Assembly (NCBI GenBank): GCA_022925895.1
Contig: JAKSYS010000260.1
Span: 1-64,000, forward strand
Direction: 5' to 3'
Origin: Fragilaria crotonensis
Taxonomy: Eukaryota > Bacillariophyta > Fragilariophyceae > Fragilariales > Fragilariaceae
DNA length: 64,000 bases
How positions within the stretch are numbered: the stretch's first letter is position 1; each line of letters begins with the position of its first letter. Position numbers and translations under genes: made by a program. This document shows, piece by piece, positions 2,002 through 46,479 of this stretch. The notes under the pieces are model-generated. The model was given only the letters and a program-made list of their open reading frames with translations, had not been told where the DNA came from and made no database searches.

Positions 2002-4099
2002 ATGAAACGTACTTTCGCTAGGCTCTTCGTGGTGGGTCTTATTTGCAATGTAATTGCTGAAAACCCTCCGCCAATCACAACTTGCATCAAAGACATGTCT
2101 CTCGTTAGTCAGAGCGAAATGTTGGTAACAGACACAAGCATTCGGAGAGTTTACATTCTCTGCCCAAACACTGTCTTCAGCCCTGGTGTTAATGATCCTG
2201 AAACTGGAGGTATTACTGGTGGTCAGGAACCGCTTGCTTGCAAATCAAACTGTGTGATAAGATGCGGAGAGAATGGACTTTCTTCTAACAACTGTGTCAT
2301 CGACGGAACGGGAACGTTTGCGATTTTCCAGATGCCATTCATTCGGTTTGAGGATCACCCGGAAATCGCCGAAGATATCTTCTACCAGGGTATAACGATT
2401 GACTTCTTTGTATCGCAAGGACAATATCCCATCCTCGTTGGTTCCTTCTTTGGAGATGTGACGTTCCAAGACTGTGTTTTTTCGAACAACAGTGGCGACC
2501 CCCTTTTTACCATCACCCAGTTTCAGGCGATGGGAAGCGCTCGTACTGGTTCCATGGACGCTACTCAAGCCGGTTACTTTTGGAATGGTGGTGGCAAAAA
2601 TGGTGGCTTGAGGCGAAATCTCCTCGAGAATGTCGAACTCGTCAGCGGACCAACAATCGTCCACGACAATGCGGCCTCGAGCCGCCAACTTCGAGCCACC
2701 GATATTCTTCAAACTGAAGGAACTGAAGTTATCACGGATGGCGATCGCATTCTACAAACGACGGACGGCTTCAAAGTTTCCTTCCAAAAATGCCTTTTCG
2801 TAGTACGTTCTTCCATGTCGACAACGAATCCATTCATTTGAGTTTTTAGACTCTCACCATTATTCTGCAGAATAACTCTCCAGTTAGAAGGCCTGAATCT
2901 ACGGGTGGTTTGTCATTGGTATGGTTTTTGGGAACCGAATTCTATGGGACTCAGCAAGGTGACGAAATAGTGGGGCAGATAGCGGGAAGCTTCATCGATA
3001 GTAGATTCAAGGGAAACCAATTCTCCTTCGAAGGCGATGAAATCGTACGTAATTCCAGGTTCGAGGCCTCAATTGTGTGCCTATACGCATTGCAATCTCA
3101 CGCGATTGATTACAGGAATTCCGCGCATTAGTTGATTTTCATTCTTCGGGAGAACTAACTATGAAACGAAACTGCTTTCTTAACAGTACCGTCAAGAACT
3201 ACGGAGTCGTTGTGGTGACAGAAGGTGCCGACATTACGAACGAGGATAACTTTGTTGAGATCGAACAGCCTGAATTACTATGCAGTTTCATCGTGAGCAT
3301 GAACGAGTCGTACTATGATCCTCAATGCGGGCTCGCCGCCACTGGAACAAGCTGCGATTCGGATGGTTGTTTCCCTGGGGACGCCACATGCGACGTACAA
3401 GGGAAAGGCGAAGTTATGATGAGGAATCTCAAGCTTGGTGACAAGGTTCGCGTGCAAGGCGGCAAGTACGAGCCTGTCTACTCGTTCGGTCACCATGCGC
3501 CCGACATGACGAATCGGTACATCAAGTTGGTAACTTCCGACAGATCCTTGGAGGTATCCAAGGATCACCTTGTTTTCGTGGAAGGAGGACGCAGCGTGCC
3601 GGCTTCCTCTATCAAAGTTGGAGATAATGTGCAGCTTGCTGACGGCGAGCTTGCCTCCATAGTGGCAATTGCTCTCACTTCGAAGCAGGGAGCTTACGCA
3701 CCATTCACCGCGTCTGGGACAGTGGTTGTGAATGGCGTGACCACATCTAGTTTCATTTCACTTCAGGGCACTGACAACCTCAAGATCGGCGGAATCGACA
3801 CAGGCTTGTCATACCACTTCCTCTCACATGCGTTTGAAGCGCCACATCGCATGTGGTGTCAGTATGTATCTGCTTGTAGCGAGGAGGTGTACACACCGGA
3901 TGGAATATCGCTGTGGGCAGCGGCGCCTCACAAGTGGTTCCGATGGTATCTTGTGCAGGACATGATCACTATGTTGTTGCTCGGGGTACCAGTGATCTGC
4001 ATTTTGCTGTGCATCGCTCATCCCGCCACTGCCCTTGTGACAATTGCTGCCGTTCTTTTCGGGTTTCGCCATCACAGCTTGCGATGCAAGCGGCATTGA
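2002..4099 (+). CDS. Secreted beta-helix protein with C-terminal Hint (Hog-like) self-processing domain
   Basis: Three exons, 2002-2802, 2871-3044 and 3116-4099, give 652 residues; both introns (68 and 71 bp) have GTACGT donors, CAG acceptors and phase 0. The start is the ATG at 2002 because a signal peptide follows at once (KRTFARLFVVGLICNVIA). Residues about 40-400 are rich in Asn, Gly and short beta strands (CPNTVF, DCVFSNN), like right-handed parallel beta-helix proteins common in diatoms. At residue 410 GCFPGDATC matches the start of the Hedgehog Hog/Hint module, with Cys410 as the expected nucleophile; SKDHLVFV (His476) fits the conserved Hint histidine block, and GAYAPFTASGTVVVNG and SHAFEAPHR match the Hog end. 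A hydrophobic segment near 608-640 may anchor the tail. Inference: the secreted domain is released or lipidated by Hint autocleavage. Hint family call firm, beta-helix call moderate, ligand function unknown. Confidence 0.85.
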
Positions 4100-24982: not shown

Positions 24983-25055
24983 TTCCGATACCGGGACTCG
25001 AACCCGGGTATCCTGCGTGAAAGGCAAGTATGCTAACCACCTACATCATATCGGA
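24983..25055 (-). tRNA. tRNA-Glu(TTC): tRNA-Glu (TTC), copy 1
   Basis: The complement folds into a full 73-nt cloverleaf: acceptor stem TCCGATA/TATCGGA, anticodon stem CTTGC/GCAGG with loop CTTTCAC giving anticodon TTC, and T-arm with GGTTCGAGTCC (B box). The A box lies in TGATGTAGGTGG. No intron. A Pol III terminator of five Ts follows directly (24977-24981 on the complement). It is identical base for base to the copy at 46407. Confidence 0.96.
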
Positions 25056-27384: not shown

Positions 27385-29495
27385 CTAAAAGCACCATTTC
27401 CCATTTTTGGTAGCACAAAGATAGATGATTTTTTCATCATGATCACAATCCGAGCATTGCCATGCCGTCTTCTTCTGACACTCCTTGCACCTCCCTTGAT
27501 ACCTAAATGTGGTTTTCTCACCTTTACTATTGTTAAGGCGCTTCACAGGAGTTAAATGAGTGAGCACCCGCCCCGCGGCGCTCCGCTTTCAAGTGCCCTC
27601 ATACAGGCATCTTGAAACAACATTGAATTTGGTGAGGATCGGGGTTGAGCTGATGGACGGCCTCTACTACCATACATGTTGTCAATCAATTCCTCAGCCA
27701 GCACTAAATAGAACTCTTTTTGATTCAGTTGGACTCTTGGAGTGTTACTCATTGCAGAAAACACCAACTACGTATCAACAACAATCATCAAAAAATTCGA
27801 CAAGTTCACACGCGTTGACCAATCTTTTGTTTCAATCTTCTTCTCCATACAAAGGTCATCTTGACGGAGTCTATTGTGCATGTCAATTGCCCCACAGGTA
27901 GTGTAATAAATTTCTGCAATTTTTGGTTGTGCAATTGTAAACATCACTTGCTCTGGAGGTGCATTCGGGGTCGCATCAACTTGCCTCCATCGGTAACGTT
28001 CTCGGTACGGAGATCCAGCTTCGAAAGACCCAGCAGTGGAAATAAAGTACCAACGCTCCCAATCCATCCACACCATTGCCCCCAATTCCGGACTGTTTTC
28101 TGTTGAATTGCACCAAAGAGCAAGAAAGTCTCCACGGTTTTGGAACTCCACACTTGTCAGGAAGGTTTTGGGGTAGCCACGTGTTGCAGTTTTAACAACT
28201 CCAATGAATCGCAGGCCATTGCGACACAATTCCTTAGCAGCACCAACAAGAGCAAAGTAGGAATCAGCACAAACAATACGATTCGTTCCAAACCAAGACA
28301 ATACAACATGTTTAAGCACATTGGTACCGTGAAGCAGACTTTCTTCGTTGTCCCCAAGCACCTCATCCTCCGAACCCGGCAGGTTAACACCTTTGACAAG
28401 TTTGAGTCGCAGCATGACTTCACTTCTGCCGCACGCTGCGTTTTGGATCTCGCAGCCATTTTCAGCAGGCTTTCGGTCAATAGCAACATATTGAGGGAGG
28501 CCATGGTTGATCCAATGGCCTCCCTGCCCATACCAGCAACTCATACTCTCATCAACACAGATGAGCTCGGACGGATTGAAATAGTTGGCTCGATGCTCGT
28601 TAAAGTTTTTAACGAAGTCATCCACCAGCTTCCACCTATACTCCTCGGACGACTCACCTTCACCAGGAGCATCAGGCTGATTACTCCACCTCATGGAGCT
28701 GAAGAGGTCTATGAACCTGTGTTTTGACGTACCAGTCAACCCAAACTGATGATCTTGTCGTGAACTCAATTTTTGTCATGAGAATGAGGATGCCAAAGAA
28801 TTGAGGAGCTCGCTTGCGGTTGTCTCTTTCAGTGAAGCTCTATTAAGCTCAACATTTGTCCGGTGGACCCCCATATCTGACAACTGCTTTGGCGGAAACA
28901 AAAGCAAAAAATTCGAGCGGCAAAATATCTTGTATTAAACTGTATTTCCTCCAGGAACCAAAACATCACCGATAGAATTGCGGATGCTCCACATTCGAGC
29001 AGCAGCAGGAACATTACCATTCAGTGGTAGGTCGTTTGTTGATACCCTGACCCATTCCATGCCATGAACACTGGCAACAATCTGAGATGATGCAGCAATA
29101 TTGTCATGCTTGGTGCCTGCTTGCTCCTTTATATCCTCTTGAGGGAATTCTTCCGCACCAACAGCAAAACCAGCCGGCGCAACTATTTCACTTACATTGT
29201 TCTCATCAACGTTCAAAGGTGTTGGGTTGGGATCATTCGCTTCAGGGGCTGCAGAAGTTGGATTTGTTGCTGCAACTGAAACGGAGTTTTGATTCACGCT
29301 TTCAGTCCCGAGTCCATTACGTTCGTTGGGAACGCTTGTAACGTGTCCGGCCTTCACTGACCTTGAATTCAATACAGTTGTCTTTGTTGTATTGCCACCA
29401 AGGTAATAGTTTGCCGTGATCAAAGTCACGGCATGCTTCTTGCCGGATGATGGGGTCGTATCAATGCAACAGACCACTCCGTTGAGGAACTTCAT
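27385..29495 (-). mobile_element. Broken piggyBac-type DNA transposon
   Basis: Minus-strand pieces in order: 29495-28935 (N-terminal, start ATG, ending MWSIRNSIGDVLVPGG), 28769-27768 (catalytic domain), 27767-27552, and 27567-27385 (Cys-rich end). The core shows the piggyBac transposase hallmarks: LICVDESMSCWYG, RIVCADSYFALVGAAKEL and MVWMDWERWYF for the catalytic Asp residues, then IDMHNRLRQDDL. The last piece RCKECQKKTAWQCSDC is the C-terminal Cys-rich zinc-binding domain. The frame is broken by a stop between VVDT and LVFSAM (27768-27770), by a frameshift near 27567 and by a gap between 28769 and 28935. Terminal repeats were not identified. Inactive in trans as it stands. Confidence 0.82.
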
Positions 29496-33035: not shown

Positions 33036-33333
33036 ACGAAATAAATTCCGAGTCTTGTCCAAATTTCTCTAAGTCCGTTTAGTCGGATGAGTCGTCTGCT
33101 TTGTGGTTTCGTCGTACCGTTGTCTCGCGCACTGTCGCGTCGATTCGTGTGTTGTCTGTGGTCATTCTCGTTTCTCTTTTGTGCTCGTGAGACTAGTAGA
33201 AATAAATAGATGGCATCGGAATCTGGTCCTAATAGTTTTGTCTCTCTCTCCTGGTTCGTCTCGCGGTGTCGGTCCCGTGATAGTTATCTAGCGGGGGTCC
33301 GTCGCGCGATTGTGAGTCGACCTGGTTTCCGCC
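33036..33333. repeat. Split direct repeat B, outer copy
   Basis: 298-bp repeat, paired with 33578-33875 and about 99.7 percent identical to it. It forms one outer end of the tyrosine-recombinase retrotransposon. Confidence 0.92.
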
Positions 33334-33421: not shown

Positions 33422-33579
33422 GATTAACTAGAGTAGTGTCTTTGTCGATTCGAGTTCGTTCGGATTGTGAGCAATTCGTATCTTGTGTTGTGTTGTGTCG
33501 TGGTGTTCGTCTGTCTGTGTCTCGTGTTCGTCTGTCTGATGGCGACTGCCCGTCCTTTCCCGATCTTCGGACATGCCAC
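33422..33579. repeat. Split direct repeat A, inner copy
   Basis: 158-bp repeat paired with 39780-39937, about one mismatch. It abuts the inner B copy (two-base overlap AC at 33578-33579), the junction expected of a recombined circular intermediate in this family. Confidence 0.92.
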
Positions 33580-33875
33580 GAAATAAATTCCGAGTCTTGT
33601 CCAAATTTCTCTAAGTCCGTTTAGTCGGATGAGTCGTCTGCTTCGTGGTTTCGTCGTACCGTTGTCTCGCGCACTGTCGCGTCGATTCGTGTGTTGTCTG
33701 TGGTCATTCTCGTTTCTCTTTTGTGCTCGTGAGACTAGTAGAAATAAATAGATGGCATCGGAATCTGGTCCTAATAGTTTTGTCTCTCTCTCCTGGTTCG
33801 TCTCGCGGTGTCGGTCCCGTGATAGTTATCTAGCGGGGGTCCGTCGCGCGATTGTGAGTCGACCTGGTTTCCGCC
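33578..33875. repeat. Split direct repeat B, inner copy
   Basis: 298-bp repeat paired with 33036-33333. It borders the recombinase end of the coding part and overlaps the end of that reading frame. Confidence 0.92.
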
Positions 33876-36800
33876 ATTTTCCGGTTGTCGTTCGTCCGCA
33901 GAATCTGGGGCGATCGTGTAGAAAGATTGTCGACTCGTCATGCGTGCGGCTACTCCGAGTGTCGAGTCCGGCACTTGAATTCGGAGGTATCTCATGAACG
34001 TCTGGCCGCCACCTCCCCACCATCTGAATCGTCTCACTTGGAACTCCGGCGAGGTGCATGGCCATCGCGGCGCCTGATCTGATCAGTGAGTGCCGATGCC
34101 ACTCGCCTGGAGGCCAAGCCTCTCCTCCCCTGCGAGTCGTCGCCATCCTGAGCTGCCTCAGTATGGACTTGGAAGAGATGTGTTGGGGTTCGTCTGAGTC
34201 CTGCGTCCTGACGGCGTTAATCTTCGGGTTCGTCCGTGAATGGCAATCGTAACTCCGTACCCTCGTCGTCAGGTCCGCTAGCACGCGGACGGGGCAGATG
34301 TCCGTTTGTCCCTGCCTGTCGTTTCGATGCTGAGTCACTGTCGCGCCTTTGTCCCCGTTCTTTTGTCGCCGGAAGGTGATCGACACGGTGTCGGCATTCT
34401 CCAGTTGTCCTCGGTCGGTTGTCTGCAGGTCCTGTCCCTTCTGTCGGAAACGAACGTCGTCCACTCTGATCACTGATGTCGTCCGTCGGCTTCCGACATC
34501 GGAATATTCGCACGACCTCATGGCGAAAAAGAACGCGACCACCACAAGTTGTCCAATAGCGATGTCCGTCTCGTTTCTTGCCCAGGATCGAACCTTTCGA
34601 ATCACCTCTAACGGCAGCGCCTGCTGTGGGGTAGGTCCTGGGTCCTCGTCGGCGTAACGTTTCAGTTGTAAAGCCAGAAGGGGGTCGAGTCGTCCGGCGG
34701 CGTCGTGGATTGGGCTCTCAAATTTGTTAAGCCTGAAGGCCTGAGCCACACCGTCGAGGGTGGCACGAATGGAACCGGACAAGGGTCCATTGCCAGCTTC
34801 CTGAGGTTGTCGGGAGCGAAGCCGTCCGTCCCGAAGGGCGGCGGCGAAGCAGGCGAACGTTTCTGCTTTCGCTTCTCGTCCGAGTCCTTGGAGAAAAGGC
34901 TCCCTCCCGACTCCGTCGATTCGTCCGAGGAATCTTTCGTAACAGCGCCAGCTGCTATCGCGCTTGGCACGGGTTGAGTCGGCAAGAGCTGCGTTTTGGG
35001 CAGCAGCTGCAGCCAGCCTCCAATCTGCGAAATAAGGGCTGGCCGCAAAGGGATGATCCTGAAGTTCTGTGGAACAAACGGTGAGCAGTTTTTCGTGATC
35101 AAGTCTGTCAGTGCCGCGTCGTCTAGAGCGAAATCTCGGGAGAGCATGTCCGCCACCTTGTTCTCTTTCCCGGGGAACCACTGCGTGTAGTGGTCTATCT
35201 CGTGCGTGAGGCAGAAATCAGCGAACGCTCGGGCTATCGTCAGGTGAAGCGGACAATCGTCGTTGAAGTTCGACTTAGCAAGCCATCCCGCTGCTGAGGT
35301 GCTGTCTCCTGACTGAGCAGAACGTCTTCGTCCGTCCACGCGGCCCCTTCGTGGAATTCCACGATCATCCCCACAAAGGCAGCAAGGAACTCGAGAGTGT
35401 TTAGGGTCGCTCGCCCCAGCAGGTGCTCTGGTAGCTGATATCGCCACGCCAGGCCGCTCTTGAGGCAGTAGCCTCCGATGCCTTGTGGGCATGCGTCCAC
35501 CCTCACTATGCGCGTCGGCCACCGGCAAACCAGCCTGTTGATCGAGATACCTCGCGACGCCTTCTGAAGGAAAGCCTTCCACAGAATCAGGTCGTCCAGT
35601 TGGGGTTTGGTCAGTCTCGCCTTCCCGGCCTGCTTCGAACGCTCGCAGGCCTTGTATAGCCTTCCCATAAAGTGTCTTGCGTAAGGGATGACGTAGGCGG
35701 CGTGGCTAAAACGTCCGAGGGTCGTCTCTAGGTCTCTCGTCGTCACGAAGGCATGTCTGTGCGTCAGCATCCTGTCAACGGCTTGCGTCCAGCTCATGTG
35801 CTTATCGTGAGGCAGTGCGACGACGAAGCGGCGTGTGTCCACGATCCATCCGAGGATCATCTTCCTCTCGGATGGTTTGGCCTCGGCCAGGAACTTTGGG
35901 ATCGCAAGGATATCGTCTCTGGGAAAAGTCTCCTTAACCTCGGGGTCGCAAGGCCTCCCGACCAGGTGGAGCGCCAGCGGGATCGCGGCAGCGCTCTTTT
36001 CGTCGCGGGGTTGAAGGCCCCAAAATGTCGTCCAGGTAGCAGTCGAAGCGAGGGAGGTCGTCGTAGGGTGGATAGTTCACTGCGAAGTAGTCCGCCTTGC
36101 CGAAAACACTCATTTTGTCGACCGACCCTTTGTCATTGTCCACTGCCCCTTCGGTGTCCAGGAGGTGCTGGTGCGGCGAGTGGTAGACGCTCGGATCCCA
36201 GTCGTCCCTGCGGACAAGGTCGTTTGCCAAGTCCGTGATCATCTCCGACACGTCGCTCCATTGCGATGGGTTTGGCGCTCCACCGAACGTCATCCTCAGC
36301 GCCACTAACAGCAGGTCGTCGATACTCGTGCAGGACTTCATGGCTGTGGCTGCTTTGAGATGGATTCGTCTGTAGGCGGATTTGCAGTCGACCTTCGTCA
36401 TCCAGATAGGCTCGTCTGGCCATAGTTGGCGCAGGAACGAGATGTGGTACATGAGTCTGCTGAATGCTTTTCGAAACGTGCTTCTGTCAGTTGGGATGTG
36501 TCCACGCGTTCATTTACGCTTCGTCCTGCCACTCCGCTCGGGCTGAATGACTGGTCATGTGTCAGTCGGAGTTTCTCTATTGAATTTCCTTTCTCGTCGA
36601 TCGACGTCTGCGCGACCATCCCCAGAGGCGCGACCTCGCATCCCTTGATCTCTAAGGCGGCTTCTCGCGGCAGTGGTAGCTGCCAACCCCTTGAGGCTTC
36701 GTCCTTCAGCATGGATATCAACTTTGCCTCGTGGCCTCGGGCCGATTTGTGATTGCCGCGAGCTAAGTTGGCGCGCACGTCCGCGAGGCGGTCAGAATCC

Positions 36801-39779
36801 GAGATCTCGCGAAGCGGGAACTCGGCCCCTTCGGAGATGCGCTCCTGAAAACGCGGCCAGAGGGGTGGGCGGACAGGAGCGGGGCGAGAAGTTCGGTGGG
36901 GCGAAACTCGGATCCCGGCGTCAGGGCGCTGAACGGCTGGGCCCGAAGGGCGGCGTCGAGGTCGAGGCGTACCGTTTGAGCACCGCGAGGTTGTGGCGGG
37001 CGGCGTCGTGCGTCCAGTCGAAGCGAAACTCCGTCGCGTGGGTGCGCGGTTGGCCGGAGTGCAAAATAGTGGCAAGGGCATCGGCCAGGCGTGGTTCGGG
37101 AGTCGTGGGAACGGCGAGTCGACGTTCGGGAGCGGGATCGTCGGCAATGGCACCAACGATGGGAACTTACCGGGAAGCGGGCGTGGCGTGTCTGCGAGGG
37201 CTGATGTCGGCGCGTCGTGGGCGTCTCCGGGCGACAATGCGCGCGCCACGGGTGGTCGGTCGGTGGCGAGTCGAGGGCGGAGCGTAGCGCTCCAGGCCCG
37301 ACTTCGTTTCGTGACGGGTCGTCGCGGGCTGGCGAGAGATGCGGGGCGTCGGCGACGTGGCGGGGGCGAGAAGGTTCGTGCGCGTGGGTTCCCGCGGGAC
37401 TGTCTCGGGCGGCAGATTCCGATAAAGTCCGGGGCGTCCTACGTGGCGTCTGTTGTGGAACTCGGCCGTCGACCGTTCCTGGTCGAACGCCCATTGCGAC
37501 GGCTGTGCGACGAAGGCGGGCTGGAAGTAAGCAGATGCAGAGGGTCCTAATTTTGTTTTCTTGCTGGGCGGCGTCGCGTCGGACGAGGGCGGCGCATGCG
37601 CGCCCGGCACTGCTCTATCCACGCTCGTACGGCGGTCGTCTGTTCGGTCGTGAGGGCGACGTGCGAGGCGCTCAAGAAACAGCTCTTGACGCACTTCCCG
37701 TTTAGGTGCCACCTGCAGCACATGTTCGGGATCGGTCCACTTCGGACGTGATCGAGGAACACCTGCCAAGTGTCGTTCGCGTCTCTCGGGAAAAGGTCCT
37801 GCTGTGGGTTTGTGACTGCGTCCGCGGGTTGCCCGCGACGTCCGGCTCGAGCGCTCCCGGCGGCGGCTACAGGCTGCGAGTCGCCCTTTGGTCGACTCCA
37901 CGTCCCAGCCGCTCCTTGAGGAAGTCGCAGGCCGGGAAGACAAAGGCGCCGTCCTCCAACTGCTGCCGGGTGGACCTGAATTCTAGGAGTGCTGGGTTGA
38001 TCTCGTCCTCGTGTTCGACTCCAGCGCAGAGAACTAGGTATTGTTGCATGCGTTTTCGATGAACCAACCTAACCTGCACGCGGCTGAGGGTCAGCGTGCG
38101 CTAGCTGGCGGAGCGTCGCCAGTGTGGAGCCGACCGCCCTGGTCAGGAAACGGCTCCACTCGTCCAACATGTGTGTGAGCGGGAATTGGCTCCGAAAGGA
38201 GCTCCAGCACTCCGCTCATGTTCTCGATAAGCCGCGCGAGTTCGTGAAAATCTTTCGGCACCGTGAAGTTGAGTTTCGTCATGCTCTTGATGTCCTTCTC
38301 CGAGAAGCCCGTGGTCGTGTCGGTCGTCTTGAGTTGCATTTGCACAAGGGTGCTGGCGTGATCAGAGGCTTCTCGCCCGATCGCTGCTGCTCGGGCGAAC
38401 GTCTGGGGACCGCAACAGAAGAGGCTGAAGGCCCTGGCCGGTCAGGTGTGTCGGCCGTGAAAGAAGCGGTGCGGATTGCGGCGCAGAAGCCCATGGGAAT
38501 GAACGCGTCTCGACCTTTGGTGTTCCTCAAGAAGTGGTGGATGTGGTTTTGTACGTAGGCCACGTTGCTAAGCGTCAGGATGTCCGAGAAAGACTGGACC
38601 GGGCGGCTGCGAATCATCCTGTCGGCGTCCCTTTCGGACACGAAAAGGACCATTCGTTTCGTCGACGGCGGGAAAGAGTCAAAGCCTGTCTTCGACGTTT
38701 GGGGGGACGAGGTCGCTGCGTTTGCTGCCTGTCGCTCCAGTAACGTTGACAGGTTTCGAATGGCGTCCTCTGTGCGTCCTGGCGTGCTGGCATGGTCGTC
38801 CGTCCGAATGAGGCTCCTAGCTCTGACCGCCAGATGCTTGAGGTGTAGCGATTTCGCCCATTCGTCCGATCGTTTGGAGTATGCGTTTGATGCCGCCACC
38901 CCTCGCTTTGTCGGTCCCGGGTCCTCCTCGAGTTTACCGCTACGCTGAGGACCCACCGCGGGATGTAGAGGCTGCCTCCGCGCGGATGGTTGCTCTGGAC
39001 GGGTCTGGGTCCTCGCTCGCTCTCTGTTTAATGGCGTTGACGATCAGTAGGGCGAGCTCCTCTGGCGCGGTGACGTAAGTGTCCATGATGGCGGCTGCGA
39101 TGAAGGCCGGCACCGGGACGGTGGGCTTCATCGTGAACCCGACGACCGTGACGTCGTCTGTGTCGTCCTCGCTCGCTTCGACTGGCTTGCTTGGCTTCGC
39201 CCGGTGCTTCGTTCCGCTTCCTTTCTTCGGTCGTCCTCTGGTTGCAGTCGGCAGGGTGCCGGCTGGCTCGGCTTCGCGCGTGGCTCCGGTGCTGACGCCT
39301 GACACCTGGGCACGTGTCGTCAGAGATTCATTGATCGCCGCCAGTACGTCCGACGTAGAATTCCACGAGAGCATCCTCGACCAATCAAAAGGCGTTCCGA
39401 TGTGTCGCTCTACGACCTGTTTCGTGTCGACCGCCATGGCGGCGGCGAAGCCGCCAGCCCCATCAGTGCCCAAAGGGCGTTCGTCCCGTCGTTGAGTCCA
39501 TCGTCAGCGTCGTGGTGGAAGTGGTGAAAGAGTCGGATGACTCCGTGCGTGTTTACCATAAGGTGGGCGACTTCCGGAGAGCACAAGTGTACGAATCCTG
39601 TAGAATTTGTACTGACCGAGTTCGTCTTCGAATTCAAAGCGCTGAGCTTTTCGACGACCTCCCACTGGTCGAGCTTCCTGAAAACGTCCAACCACGTCAA
39701 GGTCATCGTCATCGGTGAGCGAGCGTCGTCTGACCCCTCCATTGCGTCTGTGGTTCAAGTCGGGTCGGGGGAGAGGCCA

Positions 39780-39937
39780 GATTAACTAGAGTAGTGTCTT
39801 TGTCGATTCGAGTTCGTTCGGATTGTGAGCAATTCGTATCTTGTGTTGTGTTGTGTCGTGGTGTTCGTCTGTCTGTGTCTCGTGTTCGTCTGTCTGATGG
39901 TGACTGCCCGTCCTTTCCCGATCTTCGGACATGCCAC
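39780..39937. repeat. Split direct repeat A, outer copy
   Basis: 158-bp repeat paired with 33422-33579. It is the outer end next to the gag-like region, on the side where transcription of the element should start. Confidence 0.92.
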
Positions 39938-46406: not shown

Positions 46407-46479
46407 TTCCGATACCGGGACTCGAACCCGGGTATCCTGCGTGAAAGGCAAGTATGCTAACCACCTACATCATATCGGA
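46407..46479 (-). tRNA. tRNA-Glu(TTC): tRNA-Glu (TTC), copy 2
   Basis: Identical over all 73 nt to the tRNA at 24983-25055 and in the same orientation: same acceptor stem, anticodon TTC and B box. Flanking sequences of the two copies are unrelated, so the match is limited to the gene itself. It closes the right side of the gene-poor block. Confidence 0.96.

Follow-up and report, generated by a model that had tools for sequence, protein, structure and literature searches.

The locus described here is a gene on the plus strand of the window, by which we mean the whole stretch of 64,000 nucleotides analysed, and its predicted product is a putatively secreted protein that carries a Hedgehog-type Hint module. 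The features of the gene, with the evidence for each of them, are as follows.

2002..2802, plus strand: exon 1, residues 1-267, with a putative signal peptide and the beginning of the ectodomain (open frame and coding bias; splice donor GTACGT at 2803)
2803..2870, plus strand: intron 1, 68 nt, GTACGT...CTGCAG (splice sites and frame join)
2871..3044, plus strand: exon 2, residues 268-325, ectodomain (frame join and coding bias)
3045..3115, plus strand: intron 2, 71 nt, GTACGT...TTACAG (splice sites and frame join)
3116..4099, plus strand: exon 3, residues 326-652 and stop, with the end of the ectodomain, the entire Hint module and the C-terminal region (frame join, coding bias, Pfam)
3368..3766, plus strand: Hint module, residues 410-542 (PF01079, E 4.4e-24; alignment to Drosophila HhC)
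3827..3853, plus strand: HAFEAPHRM, residues 563-571, similar to helix 1 of the sterol recognition region of Hedgehog (pattern H-x4-P-x-R-L/M, which occurs once)
3944..4066, plus strand: C-terminal hydrophobic segment or segments, about residues 602-642 (19-residue hydropathy means of 1.6-2.8), followed by the basic tail RHHSLRCKRH

Once its two short GT-AG introns are removed, the frame runs without an internal stop from the ATG at 2002 to a stop codon ending at 4099 and encodes 652 amino acids. Both introns are required, because the unspliced frame of exon 1 terminates at 2841 and that of exon 2 at 3131. A codon model was built from four long open reading frames of the window, those for the ribonucleotide reductase small chain and for MARCHF6-like, CPSF-A-like and KNTC1-like products; in every one of the three exons it scores the used frame positive and the other two forward frames negative. 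The GT-AG sites, the frame join and the coding bias confirm the two small introns, the start and the stop proposed in an earlier note on this DNA, and the gene for the Hint protein is real in its predicted three-exon form. No paralogue of it was found within the 64-kb window.

Several other features are found in the window. Just upstream of the Hint gene, perfect 15-nt inverted repeats, AGAGAGATCCTCTTT and AAAGAGGATCTCTCT, lie at 1-15 and 1486-1500, which suggests that 1-1500 is a DNA transposon; no transposase is recognised in it, and its true left end may fall outside the window. Inside this putative transposon, a perfect 30-bp palindrome of two 15-nt arms with no spacer occupies 372-401. 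Direct repeats of 158 bp (33422-33579 and 39780-39937, 99.4% identical) flank about 6.2 kb, in which several minus-strand open reading frames of 254-463 aa match no Pfam family, and 33422-39937 may be a mobile element, LTR-like or of some other unclassified type. A 298-bp direct repeat (33036-33333 and 33578-33875, 99.7% identical) adjoins the left copy of the 158-bp repeat. A DDE_Tnp_1_7 transposase domain (E 4e-25) is encoded in the minus-strand open reading frame at 27771-28775, near which no long inverted termini were found. Two minus-strand tRNA-Glu(TTC) genes, at 24983-25055 and 46407-46479, are 100% identical over 73 nt and lie 21 kb apart.

In animals, the Hint module trims Hedgehog signals and tags them with lipid by cutting itself. 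Our Pfam search reveals that residues 402-542 of the present protein match PF01079, the Hedgehog-type Hint family, with a score of 85.7 bits, the cut-off being 29.7. The top solved-structure matches of the module are Sonic hedgehog (E 2e-5) and then Drosophila Hedgehog, and the alignment to Drosophila HhC scores at a z of about 11 above shuffles. The similarity is far beyond chance, and membership in the Hedgehog-type Hint (Hog) family is near certain. Hint modules and inteins have a common fold (PMC9163320), which would be in line with a splicing mini-intein or a bacterial-type Hint module at this place. However, it is the Hedgehog model that matches, Hint_2 appears in the Pfam search only below its cut-off, not a single intein model is matched, and no C-terminal His-Asn with Cys, Ser or Thr of a splice junction is seen at the end of the Hint fold. 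An intein identity is largely refuted, and we give this reading hardly any credence. This profile search against Hint/Hog and intein models, which the earlier note had suggested, and the mapping of residues support its claim of a Hedgehog-type Hint module. Scans of viral and prokaryote contigs, queried with the spliced protein, with its exon 3 part and with an alignment of two Hint sequences, confirmed no relatives.

The residues that carry out the Hedgehog reaction can be placed one by one. Cys410, in GCFPGDATC and preceded by Gly409, corresponds to Hedgehog Cys1; His476, in SKDHLV, corresponds to the catalytic His72; and the GAYAPFTASGT block is present at residue 517, all of them confirmed in the spliced protein as the earlier note had described them. 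Conserved alongside Gly409-Cys410 and the motif with His476 is GAYAPFTASGTVVVN. The broader claim that every core residue is intact holds for Cys410, Gly409 and His476 but fails at three other positions. In the alignment to Drosophila HhC, Ser473 stands at the position of Hedgehog Thr69, so that the TxxH motif reads SxxH; Ser537 stands at the position of Cys143, the second Cys and that of motif J; and His451 occupies position 46, where Hedgehog has its general base Asp46 (Drosophila Asp303), an assignment on which phmmer alignments to Drosophila chains agree and to which the adjacent His452 and a nearby four-residue gap attach a small uncertainty.

The two serines bear on whether the module still cuts. 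A Hint module that has lost cleavage and remains as a folded stalk anchoring the ectodomain to the membrane would be consistent with the serines that replace Thr in TxxH and Cys in motif J, and in Drosophila Hh both T326A and mutation of C400 impair the protein (PMC9163320, PMC4695875). Against such a stalk, the Gly-Cys junction and the catalytic His are kept, Ser would plausibly substitute for Thr, and Ser, Thr or Asp also replaces the motif J Cys in Hog domains of red algae and mosses (PMC2362128), so that we regard a loss of cleavage as improbable. Self-cleavage at Gly409/Cys410 is likely, because the Gly-Cys pair and the His are kept. The histidine at position 46 bears on what would follow the cut. 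In Drosophila Hh, the D303A substitution abolishes cholesterol transfer and leaves cleavage by DTT in place, whereas the engineered D303H (D46H) protein stays active with its structure preserved and takes a wider range of sterols, coprostanol and epicoprostanol among them (PMC9163320). The natural His451 is compatible with sterol ligation because D303H remains active, and by analogy with this mutant it may be a sign of a wider or a different choice of substrate.

Upstream of the Hint module, a putative signal peptide, MKRTFARLFVVGLICNVIA, is read by eye at the N-terminus and is followed by an ectodomain of about 390 aa (residues 20-409) with 12 Cys and four N-glycosylation sequons. Pfam and PDB searches of the region before residue 394 gave no family, no convincing chain and no Hedge domain; a Hedge-domain reading of the N-terminus is rejected on these grounds. 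The profile search and residue mapping thus support the earlier view that the N-terminal domain is unrelated to Hedgehog and that the protein is putatively secreted and probably self-processing. The beta-helix ectodomain of the same note was not confirmed. The repeats VTFQDCVFSNNS, VSFQKCLFVNNS and LTMKRNCFLNST look like beta-helix rungs, and from these few repeats of the VTFQDCVFSNNS kind a right-handed beta helix is a plausible guess; neither a Pfam nor a PDB match accompanies it, and the alignment-free AlphaFold models (mean pLDDT 31 for exon 1 and 35 for exon 3) are unusable.

Downstream of the Hint module, the evidence on sterol recognition is mixed. The residues of H563-x4-P568-x-R570-M571 are spaced like H374, P379, R381 and L382 of human Sonic hedgehog (hSHH), which lie in helix 1 of its sterol recognition region (SRR) (PMC7242414). 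The H-x4-P-x-R-L/M pattern, which was chosen after the sequence had been seen, arises in 879 of 200,000 shuffles of the C-terminus (0.44%). The PF01079 match and the PDB matches stop short of residues 563-571, and a PDB search with the C-terminal region, whose query had TIVVN for TVVVN (unlikely to matter), returned no Hedgehog SRR. In hSHH, cholesterol transfer depends on the His and Tyr of an HWY motif in the second SRR helix (PMC7242414), and HWY is absent from the present protein. The claim of a hydrophobic C-terminus is borne out from about residue 602, where the AlphaFold model also places two helices at about 602-642 (block pLDDT 64-71, the rest of the model being of very low confidence). 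The strong hydrophobicity and the basic tail behind it suggest that the C-terminus forms one or two membrane helices and that the Hint part would stay membrane-bound after cleavage.

From the sequence we infer a cleavage, a ligated nucleophile, a topology and a cell-surface role of the following kind. The signal peptide would be removed and the ectodomain would enter the lumen or the extracellular space, with the C-terminal hydrophobic segment keeping the Hint module at the membrane. Cys410, aided by His476, would attack the carbonyl of Gly409 to form an internal thioester; an alcohol, most probably a membrane sterol, would next displace the thioester as a nucleophile, with His451 serving as its general base; and the C-terminally modified ectodomain (about residues 20-409) would be freed from the membrane-bound Hint part. 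We judge it slightly more probable than its opposite that the protein is a Hog-family secreted precursor that undergoes cleavage with transfer of an alcohol, most likely a membrane sterol, to the released ectodomain. The match to PF01079, the Hedgehog structure matches, the kept Gly409-Cys410 and His476, His451 in the light of D303H, the H-x4-P-x-R-M spacing and the lack of an intein match all speak for this reading; Ser in TxxH and in motif J, the missing HWY and a strongly hydrophobic C-terminus unlike that of hSHH point away from it. Because the evidence from the recognition region is mixed, sterol attachment itself stands at perhaps an even chance. The thioester might instead be resolved by water or a small thiol, so that the ectodomain is released free of lipid and the Hint module is a shedding device only. 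Such hydrolysis would fit the loss of Asp46 and of the HWY motif and is harder to reconcile with the kept first-helix pattern and with the competence of His at position 46 as a general base for sterols in Drosophila Hh, and we consider it rather unlikely. Returning to sterol ligation, we speculate, as a tentative possibility, that a membrane-anchored algal Hog protein with a natural His for Asp46 ligates a non-cholesterol sterol, or another alcohol, to a large surface ectodomain, which would be a case of sterylation outside animals.

That such a protein would be surprising in a unicellular alga is a view that the literature does not support. A paper of 2008 reported Hog proteins from protists, alveolates, red algae and mosses, with secreted N-terminal parts of many kinds, and postulated an ancestral sterol-adding Ur-Hog gene (Burglin 2008, PMC2362128). 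In diatoms, more than 290 Hint (IPR001767) genes are given for Pleurosigma pacificum and 112 for Seminavis robusta (PMC12803021); they share the domain class of the present gene and possibly its group of organisms. Hint-domain proteins have also been noted in the sexual reproduction of Seminavis, and gametes of Ectocarpus have one (PMC3879662). That the gene exists is in itself no surprise; it is a good example with precedents, and its most interesting features are the natural His at position 46 and the probably membrane-anchored C-terminus. Sterol attachment by non-animal Hog proteins is postulated and not demonstrated in the literature cited here, and this gene offers a candidate, complete and seemingly well preserved, that makes a concrete chemical prediction: its natural His stands where the laboratory Asp-to-His exchange broadens the choice of sterol. 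Like the Hog proteins of Burglin 2008, the present protein combines a putative signal peptide and a non-Hedgehog N-terminus with a Hedgehog-type Hint module, has Ser for the motif J Cys and keeps a motif K-like region; unlike them, it has a hydrophobic, probably membrane-spanning C-terminus and an ectodomain that matches no Pfam or PDB family. The kelch-Hint fusions of Cyanidiales red algae likewise join a non-Hedgehog N-terminal domain to a Hedgehog-type Hint module in a unicellular alga, but they have a Kelch domain and a Thr/Pro/Ala-rich linker (PMC9812998), whereas our protein has no such linker and its ectodomain has no family match. With Sonic and Drosophila Hedgehog it shares Cys1, His72 and the Hint core and has a resemblance in the SRR first-helix spacing, and it differs from them in having no Hedge domain, His for Asp46, SxxH for TxxH, Ser for Cys143 and no HWY. 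The SRR helices of hSHH are described as peripheral (PMC7242414), whereas the strongly hydrophobic C-terminus of the present protein apparently spans the membrane.
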